Shown here: positions 57,160-64,000 of the stretch, piece by piece
Position numbering within the stretch: the first letter of the stretch is position 1
How the letters are laid out: each line of letters starts with the position of its first letter
Origin: Candidatus Eisenbacteria bacterium
Lineage (GTDB): Bacteria; Eisenbacteria; RBG-16-71-46; JAFGJU01
NCBI GenBank assembly: GCA_026388185.1
Contig: JAPLKG010000014.1
Coordinates: 248,001 to 312,000, forward strand
DNA: 64,000 nt
Direction of reading: 5' to 3'
The notes under the pieces: model-generated
The model's database searches: none
Told to the model about the DNA's origin: nothing
What the model saw: only the letters and a program-made list of their open reading frames with translations
Made by a program: the position numbers and the translations under genes

Positions 57160-57729
57160 TCAGAGAGACGTCGGCTCGCCGGCTTCTGTTTGCGGACCTG
57201 AATGACCGGTACGACCCAGTTGTTTCCTTATCTTGGCTTCGTTGCGCGAATATCTCTCGTACAACTCGGTCGGTAGAAAACGGGCGATTACGCGTGACAC
57301 GTTCATGATACGCGGCGTGAGTTTCGACGCGATCATTGGTTCGGTGGGTTTGTCCGTGCAGACTATAAACAGCGCAAACAGGACAGCTATCAGAAGCACA
57401 AACCTCGCCAGACCGAATACGCCTCCGACCAACCTGTCGAACCATCCCACGTGTATCGCAGAGATGGCAGCCCTGGAAGCGAGGCCTATCAGCTTGAACA
57501 GCAGGATCACGATGGCAAGAATGACAACAAAAGAGATCACCGTGAGAGCCACGGGGTGCTGAATCCACTTGCTAAGATATCTGGCTAGCAGCTCGTGATA
57601 CCTAAAGGCTATGATGATGGCCAGGACGAGACCCATGAGAGAAAACGCCTGTCGCACGAATCCCTTGACGAGACCCTGGATCATGCCGGCGATGAGGATA
57701 ACTAGTATGGTGATATCAAGCCAGTTCAT
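57160..57729 (-). CDS. CvpA-family membrane protein
   Basis: The start ATG 57729 gives 189 residues, MNWLDITILVILIAGMIQGLVKGFVRQAFSLMG, the CvpA family opening; the frame is open upstream but lacks membrane character. Four transmembrane helices follow (about 5-25, 30-48, 62-85, 102-122), then a soluble tail. CvpA is linked to colicin V export and envelope functions; its real role is unclear. It is convergent with nadE, 49 bases apart. Confidence 0.88.
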   Translation of the reverse strand: MNWLDITILVILIAGMIQGLVKGFVRQAFSLMGLVLAIIIAFRYHELLARYLSKWIQHPVALTVISFVVILAIVILLFKLIGLASRAAISAIHVGWFDRLVGGVFGLARFVLLIAVLFALFIVCTDKPTEPMIASKLTPRIMNVSRVIARFLPTELYERYSRNEAKIRKQLGRTGHSGPQTEAGEPTSL

Positions 57730-57939
57730 GACGAGAGTATTGCCCAACGAATCAGAACATGTCAAATGTTTTTTGCCGAAGAACCTGGCCCTGGGGTGCA
57801 GTCTGGTTGCGCTCGGACGCCTGACTAGGGTCTTCACCGGGATGAGCAAGCCGACTAGTGCATTCTGACGGTCGTTGGCGCATACGGTCCTTCTTATTTG
57901 TTACTTCCCATGCTGTTGTCGTTCCTAATAATTTTTTTC

Positions 57940-57968
57940 TTGACACCTGCACAAATGTGCAGTAAAAT
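57940..57968 (+). promoter_or_regulatory. Promoter of lexA
   Basis: TTGACA (57940-57945), 17-base spacer, TAAAAT (57963-57968). The spacer is filled by the candidate LexA operator. Leader of about 95 bases. Confidence 0.75.
57947..57962. promoter_or_regulatory. Candidate LexA operator within the lexA promoter
   Basis: CTGCACAAATGTGCAG is a 16-base palindrome (7-bp arms, AA centre) of the form CTG-N10-CAG, the same size and outer bases as the E. coli SOS box (CTGT-N8-ACAG). It lies exactly between -35 and -10 of the lexA promoter, so binding would block RNA polymerase. No second copy was found in the window. Confidence 0.7.
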
Positions 57969-58068
57969 GTCTGCGGAATGTTTGATGTAGGCAAAATCCG
58001 AGATACCGATTGAATGTTCAGTGCAGAAACGAAGGTAGCTAACCGATTGAAAATAAAAGAGGTAGCGT

Positions 58069-58902
58069 ATGGGAATGAAAGATCGAGATCGAGTCAAACT
58101 TGAGAGACCAAGAGGCGGTAGGAAGCTCGGCAAGGGACAAGGTGCGGGTAAAAGAGCGCAGGCTGGCCAAAGAGCAACGGGTTGTCTCGGAGCGAGGGCC
58201 GGGAAGATCCTCGATTTTATAGTGAATTCTATTCTTGAAAAGGGTTCGCCACCGACGATACGCGAGATAGGAAAAGAGTTCAGGATTTCCTCTACTAATG
58301 GAGTGAGATATTACCTCGGAGTTCTTGAAAAGGCCGGATGCATTAAACGTAAAGGGAAGATATCGAGGGGCATAGAAGTGAAGAGAGAGTGGATTGATTC
58401 CGCGAGAGGGGAGTCTTGGAGATTCGTCCTCGGCCGGGTTCAAGGCGGAAGGATTGACAAGGCGAGGGAAATCAGCCCAAGCAGCCCACTAGGATTACTC
58501 AGACCACTAGGATTACCAGGGCTTGTTGAGGTTCCCCTCGTCGGTAGGGTGGCTGCCGGCACTCCTGTTCTTGCCGAGGAGAACATAGAAGATGTTATAA
58601 CGGTCGATGGGAGCATCGCGAAACCCGGGAAACTTTTCGCGCTGAGAGTGCGCGGAGACAGCATGAAGAACGCGGGCCTTCTTGATGGAGACATAGCCAT
58701 CGTAAGGCAACAACCCCGCGCCGATTCAGGCGATATTGTAGTCGCGCTTCTTGGAGAAGAGGCCACGGTGAAAAAATACGTCCTCAAAGAAAACGAAGTG
58801 ATACTTGAGCCGGAGAACGAAAGCTATGAACCCATAGTTGTAACGGAAGAAAGTCAATTCAGTTTGGTGGGTAAGGTGATCGGATCGTTGAGAAGGTATT
58901 GA
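58069..58902 (+). CDS. lexA: LexA repressor
   Basis: This protein of 277 residues, about 70 longer than usual, has a 44-residue basic lead (Lys/Arg/Gly-rich), a winged helix-turn-helix (ILDFIVNSILEKGSPPTIREIGKEFRISSTNGVRYYLGVLEKAGCI, 48-92), a linker with the hexapeptide repeat PLGLLR PLGLPG, and the S24 peptidase. Cleavage site Ala163-Gly164 (VAAGTP), catalytic Ser198 (GDSMK) and Lys235 (ATVKK) are all kept, so RecA-stimulated self-cleavage is expected. It heads a run of genes including dinB. Start: GGTAGCG region upstream, ATG 58069 or 58075. Confidence 0.95.
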   Translation: MGMKDRDRVKLERPRGGRKLGKGQGAGKRAQAGQRATGCLGARAGKILDFIVNSILEKGSPPTIREIGKEFRISSTNGVRYYLGVLEKAGCIKRKGKISRGIEVKREWIDSARGESWRFVLGRVQGGRIDKAREISPSSPLGLLRPLGLPGLVEVPLVGRVAAGTPVLAEENIEDVITVDGSIAKPGKLFALRVRGDSMKNAGLLDGDIAIVRQQPRADSGDIVVALLGEEATVKKYVLKENEVILEPENESYEPIVVTEESQFSLVGKVIGSLRRY

Positions 58903-58915
58903 GCTAAACAAAGTC

Positions 58916-59167
58916 ATGATCGAGACAATCAATGAAGCCATAGAGGTTGTGTCTGTTTGTACAAACGGCAAGATGCATCCCCTTCGTTTAAGGTGGAAAG
59001 GCAAAGTAGTCAAGGTGAAGAGAATCACGGGCGAGTGGAGAAAAAACGAGGGAGAAGCAAGGGTCTATTACTATTCGATCCTTGGTGAGAATTCCGACTA
59101 CTTCGAGATTTGCTACGATTCGCGCACGCTAATCTGGACTCTGTGCAGAGTATGGCTTGAGGGATAG
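58916..59167 (+). CDS. Small DinB-associated protein, DUF6504-like
   Basis: The 83 residues include a strand core (MHPLRLRWKGKVVKVKRITGEWRKNEGEARVYYYSILGENSDYFEICYD) rich in Arg/Lys and Trp, similar in character to DUF6504 proteins that neighbour dinB in other bacteria. It lies 13 bases after lexA, and dinB begins inside or just after its end. A role with translesion polymerase is suggested only by the neighbours. No catalytic motif. Confidence 0.7.
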   Translation: MIETINEAIEVVSVCTNGKMHPLRLRWKGKVVKVKRITGEWRKNEGEARVYYYSILGENSDYFEICYDSRTLIWTLCRVWLEG

Positions 59168-59195
59168 GCGCGTGAAAGAAAGCAGTGGAGAGCGG

Positions 59196-60356
59196 ATGCG
59201 AACAATAGCCCACATAGACATGGATGCATTCTTTGCGTCGGTTGAGCAGGTATTTAATCCGCACTATAAAGGCAAACCTCTTGTAGTGTGTGGTGACCCG
59301 AACAGAAGAGGGGTTGTGTCAACGGCTTCTTACGAAGCCCGCAAGTACGGAGTAAGAGCCGGAATGCCGCTTCAGGAAGCGCGCTACCTGTGTCCTAACG
59401 GGATTTATGTAGAGGGAAATTCCGAGAAATACGTGCATGTTTCTCTCAAACTCCTTGAGATTTACAAAGACTTCACGCCGATGGTGGAACCCTTCAGCAT
59501 TGACGAGGCCTTTCTGGATTTGACGGGGACTATTTATGAATGGGAAGTGGCGAGAAAGGGAGCCATTCTTATAAAGAAGAGGATTCGCGAGGAGTTTAAC
59601 CTTACGGCCTCAATAGGGATAGCTCCGAACAAGTACATGGCCAAGATGGCGTCGGGCCTAGAAAAACCGGACGGCCTGGTCCAGATTGACAGTGAAGACT
59701 ACAGGAAGATTTTCTGGAAGCGAAAGGTGGAAGAATTGTGGGGCGTGGGAGCCAAAACCGCTGTAGCATTGAGAAGGTTGGGTATAGACACCGTCGACGA
59801 CCTGGCCAGATTTCCGGTCACTATTTTGAGAGCAGAATTTGGAATCAACGGAGAGAAGCTTTCTGATATGGCGAACGGGAAGGACGATTCTCCTGTCACT
59901 CCTTACTACGAAGGCGTGCCGGTAAAATCAATGGGTCACGAATATACCTTGAGGGAGGATACGGACAGTCTCGACAAATTGGAAAGGACGCTCTTAAGGC
60001 TTTCGGATCAGGTCGGGCGACGCCTCAGACAAGAAGGGTATCTCGGTGACACCGTGACGCTGAAACTGAGAAGCAGTACGTTTGCAACAATAACAAGACA
60101 GAAAAAACTCACGGGTTACACCGATGAAGATAGAATGATATTCGGCGTGGGGAGAGGCCTCCTGAAAGAAAACTGGAAGGGAGAAAAAGTAAGACTGGTG
60201 GGTGTGAGTATTTCGGGACTCGTGAGAAGAGGCCACAGCTTAAGCGAATCTCTTTTCGAGAAGGACGAAAAAGAGCGAAGAGTGCTTGAGGCAATCGATA
60301 ACCTCAGGGACAAGTTCGGCGAGAACGCGATAGTAAGAGCGGGTGCCATGCGATAA
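59196..60356 (+). CDS. dinB: DNA polymerase IV (DinB)
   Basis: This Y-family translesion polymerase has 386 residues from the ATG at 59196, behind GGAG; upstream TTG 59157 and GTG 59172 are less likely. Catalytic acids are in HIDMDAFFASVEQ and SIDEAFLDLTG; TASYEARKYGVRAGMP, SIGIAPNKYMAKMAS and the thumb/HhH VEELWGVGAKTAVALRRLGI and the little-finger domain are present. The C-terminus lacks an obvious beta-clamp QxxLxLF motif. Co-transcription with lexA suggests SOS induction. Confidence 0.96.
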   Translation: MRTIAHIDMDAFFASVEQVFNPHYKGKPLVVCGDPNRRGVVSTASYEARKYGVRAGMPLQEARYLCPNGIYVEGNSEKYVHVSLKLLEIYKDFTPMVEPFSIDEAFLDLTGTIYEWEVARKGAILIKKRIREEFNLTASIGIAPNKYMAKMASGLEKPDGLVQIDSEDYRKIFWKRKVEELWGVGAKTAVALRRLGIDTVDDLARFPVTILRAEFGINGEKLSDMANGKDDSPVTPYYEGVPVKSMGHEYTLREDTDSLDKLERTLLRLSDQVGRRLRQEGYLGDTVTLKLRSSTFATITRQKKLTGYTDEDRMIFGVGRGLLKENWKGEKVRLVGVSISGLVRRGHSLSESLFEKDEKERRVLEAIDNLRDKFGENAIVRAGAMR

Positions 60357-60400
60357 TGTTGTACGAGTCATGCCATGATTTCAAGTGAGAGAACGTACTG

Positions 60401-61504
60401 ATGACAGAAGACTTTCATAAGAAACCCTTCGACGAGGGGACCATGGTGAAGCTCCGTCTTTTTGAGAACTACGTCGCGGAGTGGCTTCCGGTGTTCATAT
60501 CCTCCGCCCAGGGAAAACGAATCAATATAGTTGATTTCTTCGCGGGGCCGGGAAGAGATGTCAAGGGAGTAGACGGGAGTCCACTTATTGCGCTTAAACA
60601 GATTCGCAAATTCACCTTCCGCATTCGACAAAGCTCCAGTTTGTTGTACTTGCTTCTCAATGAGAAAGCCACACAGAAAGCGGCTACACTTCGCAGCATA
60701 ATGGAAAGTCAGACAGTTGATGAGAAGTTGTGTAAGTGTGAAATTGAGGCACTGGATTTCGGGAAGGCCTTCGAGAAGTATTACCCACACCTTCTAGGGA
60801 ATGCAAACCTGCTCTTCTTAGATCAAACCGGAGTGAAGTCCATATCGGACGACGTGTTTGTCAGAATCCTAGAGCTTCCGACGACAGACTTCATTTTCTT
60901 TATTGCATCCTCGTCGCTCCGTCGATTTGCCGATCATCCCTATTTCCATAGACACCTGAAGATTCCTAAGGGGACTATTTCAGCTCGGAGTTTCAATGAG
61001 ACGCACCGCGTAGTTACGGACTACTATCGCAGTCTGGTCCCGCCTGGGAGGGAGTTCTACTTGGGCTCTTTTTCGATTAAGAAGGGCAGCAATCTGTACG
61101 GGATCATATTTGGATCGGGACATCCACTTGGAATGGAGAAATTCCTCAGGGTATGTTGGAAACTGCATTCAATTCGCGGTGAGGCGAACTTCGATATTGA
61201 TTCGGAAGACATCAATGCCCGTTCACCACACCTGTGGAAAGAAATGGATAGACCTAAGAAGCTCGATCTCTTCGAACGGGAATTGCGGCAACGTGTACTG
61301 AAAAAAGAACTGAGAACCGATGGTGATTTATATCTATTTGCCCTCCGACGAGGATTTCGGCCATCCCATGCGCGCCACGTATTGAACCGAATGTTGAAGA
61401 AAAGCGAGGTAGCTATGGCTGAGCCGAGGGTTAGACCTAGGATCTCTCTGGATGGCTACAAGGCACCCCGGACCCTTGAGGTATTACAGAATGGCAATCT
61501 CTAG
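60401..61504 (+). CDS. tcmP: Three-Cys-motif partner protein TcmP
   Basis: This protein of 367 residues has the TcmP opening: KPFDEGTMVKLRLFENYVAEWLP, then INIVDFFAGPGRD...GSPLIAL (residues 42-65), a Rossmann-like glycine loop resembling SAM methyltransferase motif I. A DQTGVKSISDDVF block and GFRPSHARHVLNRMLKKSEV, a winged-helix-like C-terminus, follow. TcmP proteins are defined by adjacency to three-Cys Gp37/Gp68 proteins, and that partner overlaps its 3' end here. Molecular function is not established. Ribosome-binding site GAGAG is weak. Confidence 0.88.
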   Translation: MTEDFHKKPFDEGTMVKLRLFENYVAEWLPVFISSAQGKRINIVDFFAGPGRDVKGVDGSPLIALKQIRKFTFRIRQSSSLLYLLLNEKATQKAATLRSIMESQTVDEKLCKCEIEALDFGKAFEKYYPHLLGNANLLFLDQTGVKSISDDVFVRILELPTTDFIFFIASSSLRRFADHPYFHRHLKIPKGTISARSFNETHRVVTDYYRSLVPPGREFYLGSFSIKKGSNLYGIIFGSGHPLGMEKFLRVCWKLHSIRGEANFDIDSEDINARSPHLWKEMDRPKKLDLFERELRQRVLKKELRTDGDLYLFALRRGFRPSHARHVLNRMLKKSEVAMAEPRVRPRISLDGYKAPRTLEVLQNGNL

Positions 61505-62225
61505 GATCGAATGGACAGAGATGTCATGGAACCCGGTCACGGGATGTTCCAAGCTGTCCGCGGGATGCAAGAACTGCTACGCCGAAGTCTTGGCCAAGAG
61601 ACTGTGCTCTATGGGTTCAGAGAAGTACGTGAACGGCTTTGAGGTAGCGACGCATCCCGAGGCGCTCCCGGTTCCGTTCAAGTGGAAGACCCCCCGCATG
61701 GTTTTTGTGAACTCAATGAGCGACTTGTTTCACGACGCAGTACCCTTGAGCTTCATACTGGAAGTGTTCAAGGTCATGAACCAGTGCAGGCGGCACCAGT
61801 TTCAGGTATTGACCAAAAGGCCTAAGCGTCTGGTGTCGCTGGATCAAGTGCTTCCATGGAGTGCTAATATCTGGATGGGAGTCTCCGTTGAGAATGAGGA
61901 GGTGCTGGGTCGAGTAGATTGGCTTAGGAAATGCAGTGCGAAGGTCAAGTTCTTATCGCTGGAGCCCTTGCTGGGTCCCCTCAACCATCTTTCCTTGGCT
62001 CACATTGATTGGGTGATTGTCGGGGGAGAGTCTGGCTCCCGTGCAAGACCGACTCGGGAGGAGTGGGTCTTGGAGATCCGCAACAAGTGTGCAGACACTG
62101 GGGTACCCTTCTTTTTCAAGCAATGGGGTGGGGCAAATAGGAAGAAGGCCGGGCGTCTATTGTGTGGGCGGACGTATGAGCAGATGCCACCCTTTGCCGC
62201 CGAAGAAAGCCTATTGCTGGCTTAG
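61491..62225 (+). CDS. Gp37/Gp68-family three-Cys protein (DUF5131)
   Basis: From ATG 61491, which overlaps the end of tcmP by 14 bases, the 244 residues open with IEWTEMSWNPVTGCSKLSAGCKNCYAE: Cys19, Cys26 and Cys29 form CX6CX2C, a cluster signature resembling radical-SAM proteins. Further family blocks are VFVNSMSDLFHDAVP, QVLTKRPKR, IWMGVSVEN, KFLSLEPLLGPL, WVIVGGESG and FFFKQWGG, consistent with a TIM-barrel. The family includes phage proteins and has been compared with spore photoproduct lyase. A nucleic-acid repair or modification reaction is plausible given lexA and dinB upstream, but unproven. Confidence 0.9.
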   Translation: MAISRIEWTEMSWNPVTGCSKLSAGCKNCYAEVLAKRLCSMGSEKYVNGFEVATHPEALPVPFKWKTPRMVFVNSMSDLFHDAVPLSFILEVFKVMNQCRRHQFQVLTKRPKRLVSLDQVLPWSANIWMGVSVENEEVLGRVDWLRKCSAKVKFLSLEPLLGPLNHLSLAHIDWVIVGGESGSRARPTREEWVLEIRNKCADTGVPFFFKQWGGANRKKAGRLLCGRTYEQMPPFAAEESLLLA

Positions 62226-62254
62226 AGTTTCTTCGTAATCTATGTCCCAAGCGG

Positions 62255-62272
62255 ACGCTGCAGCAGCAGCGT
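62255..62272 (+). other. Short hairpin between the three-Cys and HEPN-like genes
   Basis: ACGCTGC / GCAGCGT with loop AGCA, perfect 7-bp stem, no U tract. It could slow transcription between the two genes. Confidence 0.3.
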
Positions 62273-62353
62273 CGCAAGGCCTCGCCAGTGATTACTGCCG
62301 CTATGCAGAGCTTAGGATGGATTTGGTCTCTTTTCTTTGAGTGAGTGTCCTGC

Positions 62354-63007
62354 ATGAAGAATGATTGCTGGGAGATTGTCCTTGCAGAGGACAAATTCAA
62401 TCAATTGAGAAATGATAAGGCCTTTCTGGCGATCTTGACGCTTGCGCGCTGTGTCAACGCGCTCAGATTTTGCCAGACCCCTTTGATCGAGTCCGAGCGC
62501 AAGAGTACTCCTGCTGTGAGTAGACAACGTCTCAATTCGGTCTTGCTTGCGAGTTCGGTCTTGTACGAAGGGTTGAAGGTTGCTGATTCGCTGGGACGTG
62601 ATTTCAAGAGCCTAGTTTCCTTCCGGGAAGGGTTTGGGAAGCTGCTCAAGAAGCCAGAGACGAAGAAACTTAGGAGCGGGATCCTTTGGAAGATGAGGAA
62701 TAAATTCGTGTTCCACTTCGATCAAGACGTAGCAGCCATGGCATTGACTCACTTCGAATTGCCTTCATACAAGTTCGCCGTGGGACAGGGAACAGCCCGG
62801 GGTCACGTTTACTATGCCCTAGCAGATGAGATCAGCCTTCATTATTTGCTGGACCCCGAGGGTGAGAAATCGAATGACCAACTGGAAAAAATATACATAC
62901 AGTTCGCTCAGGAAATAGCAGATCTCATGGTTGAGTTTGACAATGCGGCAGAGGAGCTGATTGCCGAAACCTTACTACAGCAGGGCTGGTCATTAGGTGA
63001 CGATTAG
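62354..63007 (+). CDS. HEPN-like protein of unknown function
   Basis: This all-helical protein has 217 residues (ATG 62354; a GTG at 62345 adds three). Residues 110-125 read ILWKMRNKFVFHFD, with Arg115-Asn116 and His121, the R-x4-6-H motif of HEPN ribonuclease domains, preceded by long helices (LASSVLYEGLKVADSLG). Many HEPN proteins are toxins or defence RNases. No separate antitoxin gene is seen next to it; the gene follows the tcmP/three-Cys pair by 128 bases. Nuclease function is inference from the motif alone. Confidence 0.55.
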   Translation: MKNDCWEIVLAEDKFNQLRNDKAFLAILTLARCVNALRFCQTPLIESERKSTPAVSRQRLNSVLLASSVLYEGLKVADSLGRDFKSLVSFREGFGKLLKKPETKKLRSGILWKMRNKFVFHFDQDVAAMALTHFELPSYKFAVGQGTARGHVYYALADEISLHYLLDPEGEKSNDQLEKIYIQFAQEIADLMVEFDNAAEELIAETLLQQGWSLGDD

Positions 63008-63233
63008 CGGGGAAGAAGACGAACCTGACGAAGGCACAGCCCAATGTAGATCCGTCATCAGCGCCTCATGTACCTGCCAGGGGCTTCTACGGGTGCAGGC
63101 GATGCGTAGCGTAAAGTTGCCCGAGTTGCAGCCGTTTGAGACTCGCTCAGACTGGAAGAGAACGGCAACAGTCGGCGCTGTGAGCTTAGCTTCATCTTGA
63201 CGCTGAGGGATTCGCAGCACAGAGAGAAGGGCC

Positions 63234-64000
63234 ATGATAAGAATAGGTACGAGCGGCTACAGTTTTGATGACTGGGTGGGGACTTTCTATCCGCCCGACA
63301 TTCGGAAGGGCGACATGCTTTCTTACTACGCCAAGCACTTCAACGTGGTGGAGATAAATTCCAGCTACTATAGGATTCCCCATCCGGCAGTATTTCACCA
63401 GATGGAGAAGAAGACCGCCCCCGGCTTTGAATTCTTCGTCAAGGCGAACAAGGCAATGACGCACGAGTGGAGCACGGAACGGGCTCTGTACCAGCAGTTT
63501 CTGGATTCGTGCCGCCCGCTCGTGGAGGCGGGCAAGTTCTGTGGTGTTCTGGCCCAGTTTCCCTGGGGGTTCAAACAGAACGAAAAAAACTCCGAGTTCC
63601 TCAAGAAAATGCGCGAGAACTTTGGGGACACCCCTCTGGTCGTTGAGTTCAGGAACGATTCCTGGGTCAAGGACGAAGTGTTCTCTCTCCTCGAGAAGGA
63701 GAGCATCTCCTTCTGCGCCGTGGATGAACCGCCGTTGAGGGGGTTGGTGCCGCCGATTGTGAAGTACACCGCCGAACCTGGTTACGTGAGGTTTCATGGG
63801 AGAAACGCGAGGAACTGGTGGGCGAGCGGCGGAGGCGATCGGTACGACTATGACTACACCGAACAAGAACTGACGGAGTGGTTAGGAAAGATAAAGGAGC
63901 TGGCCGCAACCGCGCGGAAGACGTACATTTTCTTCAACAACTGTCATGCGGGGCAGGCGGCGAGAAGTGCGAAACTCATGGAGAGGCTACTGTCGCTTGA
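63234..64000 (+). CDS. DUF72 family protein, 3' truncated by the window
   Basis: The frame starts at ATG 63234 behind AGAAGGG and is open at the window end, giving 255 residues. RIGTSGYSFDDWVGTFYPP, a conserved HFNVVEINSSYYRIP, FFVKANKAMTH, GVLAQFPWGFK, VVEFRNDSW, YVRFHGRNARNWW and the final YIFFNNCHAGQAARSA are DUF72 hallmarks; the fold is a TIM barrel of unknown reaction, sometimes found near DNA-repair genes. Only a few C-terminal residues are missing. Confidence 0.92.
   Translation, partial: MIRIGTSGYSFDDWVGTFYPPDIRKGDMLSYYAKHFNVVEINSSYYRIPHPAVFHQMEKKTAPGFEFFVKANKAMTHEWSTERALYQQFLDSCRPLVEAGKFCGVLAQFPWGFKQNEKNSEFLKKMRENFGDTPLVVEFRNDSWVKDEVFSLLEKESISFCAVDEPPLRGLVPPIVKYTAEPGYVRFHGRNARNWWASGGGDRYDYDYTEQELTEWLGKIKELAATARKTYIFFNNCHAGQAARSAKLMERLLSL

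Follow-up and report, generated by a model that had tools for sequence, protein, structure and literature searches.

A predicted radical-SAM pair, TcmP and DUF5131, behind a LexA-type operator in a translesion operon of a Candidatus Eisenbacteria bacterium

Operons in which lexA is followed by a gene for a stand-alone ImuB-C-type protein (ImuBC) and by dinB have been described previously (PMC3765255, Aravind et al. 2013), and radical S-adenosylmethionine (SAM) proteins of the SplB/COG1533 type have been reported in SOS regulons (PMC8565304, PMC3765255). TcmP and its three-Cys partner DUF5131 (Gp37/Gp68) are spread over numerous lineages of bacteria as well as plasmids and phages, and their function is so far unknown; no paper on the function of DUF5131/COG4422 was found in the literature searched. 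We analysed a 64,000-nt stretch of DNA from a Candidatus Eisenbacteria bacterium (GCA_026388185.1, contig JAPLKG010000014.1, positions 248,001-312,000; hereafter the window), in which genes of both kinds lie behind a single LexA-type operator. The first three genes and their association are those of the published operons, whereas in the window tcmP and DUF5131 stand behind dinB and a DUF72 gene is the constant neighbour; the text of PMC3765255 mentions neither Gp37 nor a methyltransferase. With moderate confidence, its SOS component included, we favour the reading that a LexA-controlled translesion operon took up a mobile pair, which forms a radical-SAM module of the spore photoproduct lyase (SPL) type, most likely for the reversal or processing of DNA lesions. 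The features on which this reading is built are as follows.

57940-57968, + strand: sigma-70-like promoter TTGACA-17-TAAAAT, 11/12 consensus matches
57947-57962, no strand assigned: LexA-type operator CTGCACAAATGTGCAG, a palindrome of the CTGCACA-N2-TGTGCAG type inside the promoter spacer
58069-58902, + strand: lexA; TIGR00498 183.2 bits (cut-off 110.95), LexA_DNA_bind (PF01726) and Peptidase_S24 (PF00717)
58916-59167, + strand: probable stand-alone ImuB-C-type protein, 83 aa; weak match to Pfam DUF6504, E 0.0015
59193-60356, + strand: dinB, Y-family translesion polymerase; IMS E 1e-50, IMS_C
60401-61504, + strand: tcmP, three-Cys-motif partner; TIGR04474 132.8 bits (cut-off 53), PADLOC PDC-M30A E 1e-118
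61494-62225, + strand: DUF5131/Gp37-Gp68 three-Cys protein; PF07505 E 3e-94, PDC-M30B/M41B
62354-63007, + strand: orphan 217-aa protein with R115-x5-H121, helical in a predicted model; no family matches
60357-63233, no strand assigned: insert of 2.9 kb between dinB and DUF72 (tcmP, DUF5131 and the 217-aa gene); empty site in the sister genus
63234-63998, + strand: DUF72 (YecE family), PF01904 E 4e-62, extending beyond the window

The TTGACA-17-TAAAAT element was the sole strong promoter-like site found on the + strand by a consensus scan of 57700-63400. No further + strand site was found between 57968 and 63400, and a separate promoter before tcmP, which an earlier note made from the letters of the window alone had named as an observation that would overturn its proposal, was thus not detected. 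The palindrome CTGCACAAATGTGCAG in the promoter spacer was unchanged upstream of lexA in a genome of a sister genus of the same family (G002) and in a genome of another family (G028), so that it is shared by three genera, and a variant, CTGCACATATGTGCAG, was present upstream of lexA in a further genome (G004). Of 27 further class loci, 23 have the core GCAC-N4-GTGC, often as CTGCAC-N4-GTGCAG, in the 500 bp that precede lexA, which gives 25 of 29 when the window and G002 are counted in. In the whole 2.62-Mb genome of the window, TGCAC-N4-GTGCA occurred a single time, at lexA (window 57948-57961). The promoter carries a LexA-type operator whose footprint is conserved across genera; the earlier note had placed an SOS-type operator solely at the front of the cluster. 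By this footprint evidence CTGCACAAATGTGCAG is a putative lineage-specific LexA box of approximately ACTGCAC-N4-GTGCAGT.

The operator is followed by six tightly packed, co-directional open reading frames on the + strand (58069-63007). This head-to-tail cluster had been recognised earlier from the letters, and its gene families were confirmed by hidden Markov models (HMMs); the product previously listed as a small protein is now read as a probable ImuB-C-type domain. The lexA product scored above the curated TIGR00498 cut-off and combines a winged helix-turn-helix (wHTH) with an S24 peptidase domain. The 83-aa protein reached 19.2 bits against DUF6504, below the cut-off of 24.2, and its operon position fits ImuB-C; a homologue from the same class (L101) passed the cut-off with E 5e-6. 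DinB, with its ATG at 59193, was 84% identical to DinB of G002. The intergenic gaps measured 13 bp (lexA-ImuBC), 25 bp (ImuBC-dinB) and 44 bp (dinB-tcmP), and tcmP and DUF5131 overlap by 11 nt with the DUF5131 ATG at 61494, which replaces the 14 bases earlier thought to separate them; the 128-bp gap ahead of the 217-aa gene was given correctly, and a further 226 bp separate this gene from DUF72. The 44-bp gap and the 11-nt overlap are compatible with one transcript from lexA to DUF5131, with no internal + strand promoter seen in the scan.

Comparison with related genomes resolved the cluster into two parts. Throughout the class, dinB is followed by DUF72, mostly with ImuBC in front; DUF72 was found after dinB in about 27 class loci (L072-L099) wherever the sequence extended far enough, and lexA-ImuBC-dinB-DUF72 is contiguous in G002, where about 40 bp separate dinB from DUF72. 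In neither the sister genus nor the other members of the class did the dinB-DUF72 junction contain the 2.9-kb insert. Because G002 has an empty site and the class keeps the dinB-DUF72 core, tcmP, DUF5131 and the 217-aa gene are assigned to an insert; the comparison of sequences indicates that lexA-ImuBC-dinB-DUF72 is the ancestral core and that the other genes arrived by one or more insertions. The tcmP subfamily M30A is otherwise represented distantly in the phylum, where no close TcmP of the subfamily was found. Since DUF72 is the class-wide neighbour of dinB, the transcription unit need not end at 63007 and may continue into DUF72. Across the class, DUF72 was also observed to accompany the SOS genes ImuBC-dinB constantly.

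The recurrence of the pair beside SOS genes was surveyed in 385 genomes sampled from many families, with 60 control regions drawn unevenly from 19 genomes. The loci, which had been ordered by their similarity to the window, form a non-random sample and often lie on short contigs; neighbouring genes were called by tblastn against a limited set of references, and high-GC loci were mapped by tblastn. Of the 57 sampled loci, 9 have SOS genes at most 3 kb from the TcmP core; with the window this makes 10/58, versus none of the 60 controls (Fisher 5e-4 for all loci). The difference was retained when the cassettes of family f8 were counted once (7/55 loci, Fisher 0.005) and when confirmed SOS genes outside this class alone were considered (4/50 loci, Fisher 0.04). 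SOS genes were also found near 4 of 80 other DUF5131 loci, on genome contigs found by DUF5131. Family f8, which belongs to the same class, carries a second SOS operon with the pair: G043 and G035 have the order ImuBC-tcmP-DUF5131-imuB, with dnaE2 next in G035 and the contig ending in imuB in G043. G044 and G045 (L102, L103) have ImuBC-tcmP-imuB-dnaE2 without DUF5131 and with an apparently shortened tcmP, a cassette that looks as if it were decaying, and G036 has ImuBC-imuB without the pair. TGCAC-N4-GTGCA was located upstream of all four tcmP-bearing ImuBC cassettes, and no such site was seen in four contigs of the same phylum with full or partial TcmP matches (L105, L106, L108, L109).

Similar associations were observed in other phyla. 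LexA was confirmed by TIGR00498 in L221, L236, L134 and L111; lexA lies about 20 bp before tcmP in L221 and is divergent from tcmP-DUF5131-ImuBC in L134. CTGT-N8-ACAG boxes follow TTGACA before lexA in L221 and L236, and one lies between lexA and tcmP in L134. Upstream of the pairs as a whole, GAAC-N4-GTTC, GAAC-N7-GAAC and CTGT-N8-ACAG showed no significant enrichment. For Bacteroidota, an SOS box CTAA-N5-TTAG has been published (PMC8565304), and in L131, L135 (Chitinophaga oryziterrae) and L176 this motif lies no more than 220 bp ahead of a stand-alone tcmP-DUF5131 pair. Against these 3 occurrences, the same loci would be expected to yield 0.26 (P 0.002; the motif is a single one, taken from the literature, among seven patterns scanned in all). 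In L126 (2860-8714) and L154 (2027-8729), umuDC is transcribed away from a group of genes comprising a LigT-like gene, a radical-SAM gene of the PA0069 family, tcmP and DUF5131, and the same box lies in the divergent intergenic region between umuD and the pair. The pairs of tcmP and the three-Cys gene have repeatedly entered or adjoin SOS loci in unrelated lineages. The link to the SOS response, put forward in the earlier note as an inference, is thereby strengthened by the conserved operator, the insertion in an ancestral SOS operon, the second SOS operon in the class and the SOS neighbours in other phyla; the recurrence of lexA, dinB or umuDC beside tcmP/DUF5131 contradicts the absence of recurrence that the note had held would speak against it.

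The same survey bears on a simpler explanation, in which the pair is a mobile hitch-hiker that inserted downstream of dinB and is transcribed by read-through only, with no functional tie to the SOS response. The presence of the insert in one genome of the family alone would be expected in that case, as would the seemingly shortened tcmP and missing DUF5131 of G044 and G045. We nevertheless consider it improbable, since in several lineages the pair is found again and again with SOS loci and boxes.

The nature of the favoured module depends mainly on DUF5131. A structural model calculated from 48 sequences was of high confidence (predicted local distance difference test (pLDDT) 93.1, predicted template modelling score 0.89) and contained the partial (beta/alpha) barrel of radical-SAM enzymes. 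Its six best matches in the PDB were all spore photoproduct lyases (Z 14.2-14.3, root-mean-square deviation (rmsd) 2.8 over 194 residues), and the closest solved fold (PDB 4FHC, 4K9R; Z 14.3) shares 11% identity with it and differs in cysteine spacing. The residues invariant in the 48 sequences include C18, C25, C28-Y29-A30, S74-M75-D77 and L106-T107-K108-R109; C18, C25 and C28 are the sole invariant cysteines, and C199 is nearly invariant. In profile comparison by hhalign, DUF5131 aligned with radical-SAM proteins of the PA0069 type (prob 88%, E 3e-6), pairing the last cysteine with CYA, SMSD with SGNTD and LTK with LTK, and gave a weak alignment (prob 5%) with the single SPL-like protein of L113. 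In SPL, too, the third cluster cysteine is followed by a tyrosine (the title of PDB entry 4K9R names Y98F), as C28 is by Y29 in DUF5131, and the H-atom-donor cysteine of SPL appears to be replaced in DUF5131 by a serine of the SMSD segment. PDB chains yielded no match when searched with the DUF5131 sequence; the link to SPL is drawn from the comparison of structures and profiles, not from sequence search. Because DUF5131 did not match the SPL family HMMs TIGR04070 and TIGR03886, it is regarded as SPL-like and not as an SPL. In L112 (7389-9362), L113 (6917-12998) and L221 (7008-9380), TcmP is partnered by an SPL- or PA0069-like radical-SAM protein in place of DUF5131, an exchange that speaks for DUF5131 being a radical-SAM enzyme too. 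DUF5131 is accordingly modelled as a radical-SAM barrel nearest to SPL, and this predicted fold strengthens the earlier suggestion of a DNA-damage repair or modification pair.

A radical-SAM enzyme of this kind could instead act on RNA, as RlmN and Cfr do, or on nucleotides, as viperin does, and not on DNA lesions. Viperin (Z 11.7) and RlmN (Z 11.3) were indeed the next structural neighbours of the model, but SPL stood clearly above both. The genes around the pair, moreover, are those of DNA repair and restriction, and in L113 a radical-SAM gene related to TIGR03916, a DNA modification/repair family, lies with umuDC beside tcmP; we regard an RNA or nucleotide substrate as very improbable. With the SplB/COG1533 proteins of SOS regulons, DUF5131 shares a predicted radical-SAM barrel, putative SOS control and umuDC, imuB and dinB as neighbours; it differs from them in forming a family of its own, in which the spacing is CX6CX2C and the partner is TcmP.

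The partner itself was identified by a TIGR04474 score above the cut-off of 53 and by the overlap of its 3' end with the three-Cys gene; its C-terminal match to GMT-wHTH was weak and below the cut-off. From its sequence, TcmP is probably a SAM-binding Rossmann protein with a C-terminal wHTH.

Several observations weigh against the favoured reading. A search at recA of the window's genome detected no CTGCACA-type box, and since the site occurs once in that genome, its SOS regulon may consist of one operon. Roughly 90% of the pair loci have no SOS gene nearby, the control regions are uneven and the SOS genes were called by tblastn; the LexA candidate of L227 proved to be an S24/XRE repressor and was excluded from the LexA count. 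The Rossmann or methyltransferase assignment of TcmP depends on a DFFAGPG motif. In DUF5131 the spacing CX6CX2C is invariant in all 48 sequences and departs from the canonical radical-SAM CX3CX2C, and its substrate, cluster and activity remain predicted. Other cysteine spacings occur in the radical-SAM superfamily, and CX6CX2C alone does not exclude membership.

The most substantial of the alternatives is that the pair serves against phages by modifying, marking or attacking foreign DNA, its SOS control being explained by the damage that infection causes. PADLOC lists the pair as the defence candidate PDC-M30; the window proteins matched PDC-M30A, M30B and M41B, with M30A and M30B adjacent (E 1e-118 and 6e-113). 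Both genes, their adjacency and the strong scores are those of PDC-M30, which is a candidate only, whereas the window pair stands behind an SOS operator. Of 137 loci, 20 had restriction-modification genes at a distance of up to 5 kb, versus 1 of 60 controls; such genes were at least as frequent as SOS genes, which counts further against our preference. Examples are hsdR-tcmP-DUF5131-hsdS-hsdM in L166 (615-10380), res-tcmP-DUF5131-mod in L160, L207 and L215, and tcmP-DUF5131 after a type ISP enzyme on plasmid p74 of Leptospira biflexa (L039). The patchy, mobile distribution on plasmids and phages would also suit defence. However, DUF5131 is common in phages (159 phage records), which fits repair or self-modification at least equally well; a recognisable tcmP lay near DUF5131 in 38 of 80 viral contigs (L304-L383), so the pair travels in phages. 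The SOS operators and the polymerase genes nearby suggest a tie to damage, and the fold predicted for DUF5131 is the one known from an enzyme that repairs DNA lesions. Phage defence remains a serious rival, if a somewhat unlikely one, because of the restriction-modification neighbours and the PADLOC listing. Taken across both possibilities, the probable role of the pair is to act on DNA that is damaged or foreign.

A different kind of defence was proposed for the last gene, whose 217-aa product the earlier note had described as HEPN-like with an R-x5-H motif. The segment R115-N-K-F-V-F-H121 fits the R-x4-6-H pattern of HEPN proteins, and a single-sequence model was mostly helical, at a low confidence (pLDDT 55). 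HepT of the MntA-HepT toxin-antitoxin system (PDB 6M6W) was among the structural matches of this low-confidence model (Z 8.7-8.9), with an rmsd of 2.7 over 108 residues, the lowest of the top matches, although helical bundles reach Z values of such size by chance. The possible helical arrangement and the R-x-H motif resemble this system, whereas in the window no nucleotidyltransferase partner was found, the spacing is R-x5-H and the model is of low confidence. The protein had no HMM match and no homologue in 99 genomes, plasmids, phages, and viral and genome contigs, and no HEPN-like gene was seen beside the nearest tcmP relatives. The motif and the helical model thus bear out part of the description, and a homologue or recurrence with the pair did not emerge. 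We consider it improbable that the protein acts as an RNase of the HEPN kind in a locus that would arrest growth or cause abortive infection once damage occurs, and an antitoxin for such a system was not identified; we treat the 217-aa protein as a member of the insert that may be a HEPN protein.

Under the favoured reading of a captured SPL-type module, DNA damage would lead to RecA-stimulated cleavage of LexA and switch on the whole unit. C18, C25 and C28 of DUF5131 would bind a 4Fe-4S cluster and convert SAM into a 5'-deoxyadenosyl radical, which would attack a DNA lesion or modified base and bring about direct reversal or processing, as in SPL. TcmP would serve as the SAM-binding partner that handles DNA or substrate, and DinB would bypass lesions left unrepaired. 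Beyond the window, we tentatively suggest that TcmP and DUF5131 form a widespread, horizontally moving radical-SAM system for DNA-lesion repair, a cousin of SPL with its own partner, which has been captured repeatedly by SOS regulons and is also found in phages and restriction operons. If true, two large families whose role is unknown would thereby acquire a function, and the SPL-like predicted fold together with LexA-type control yields a testable proposal, that of a damage-induced radical-SAM enzyme pair. For a small phylum, a putative lineage-specific LexA-type operator is gained, along with an example of an SOS operon recruiting new enzymes.

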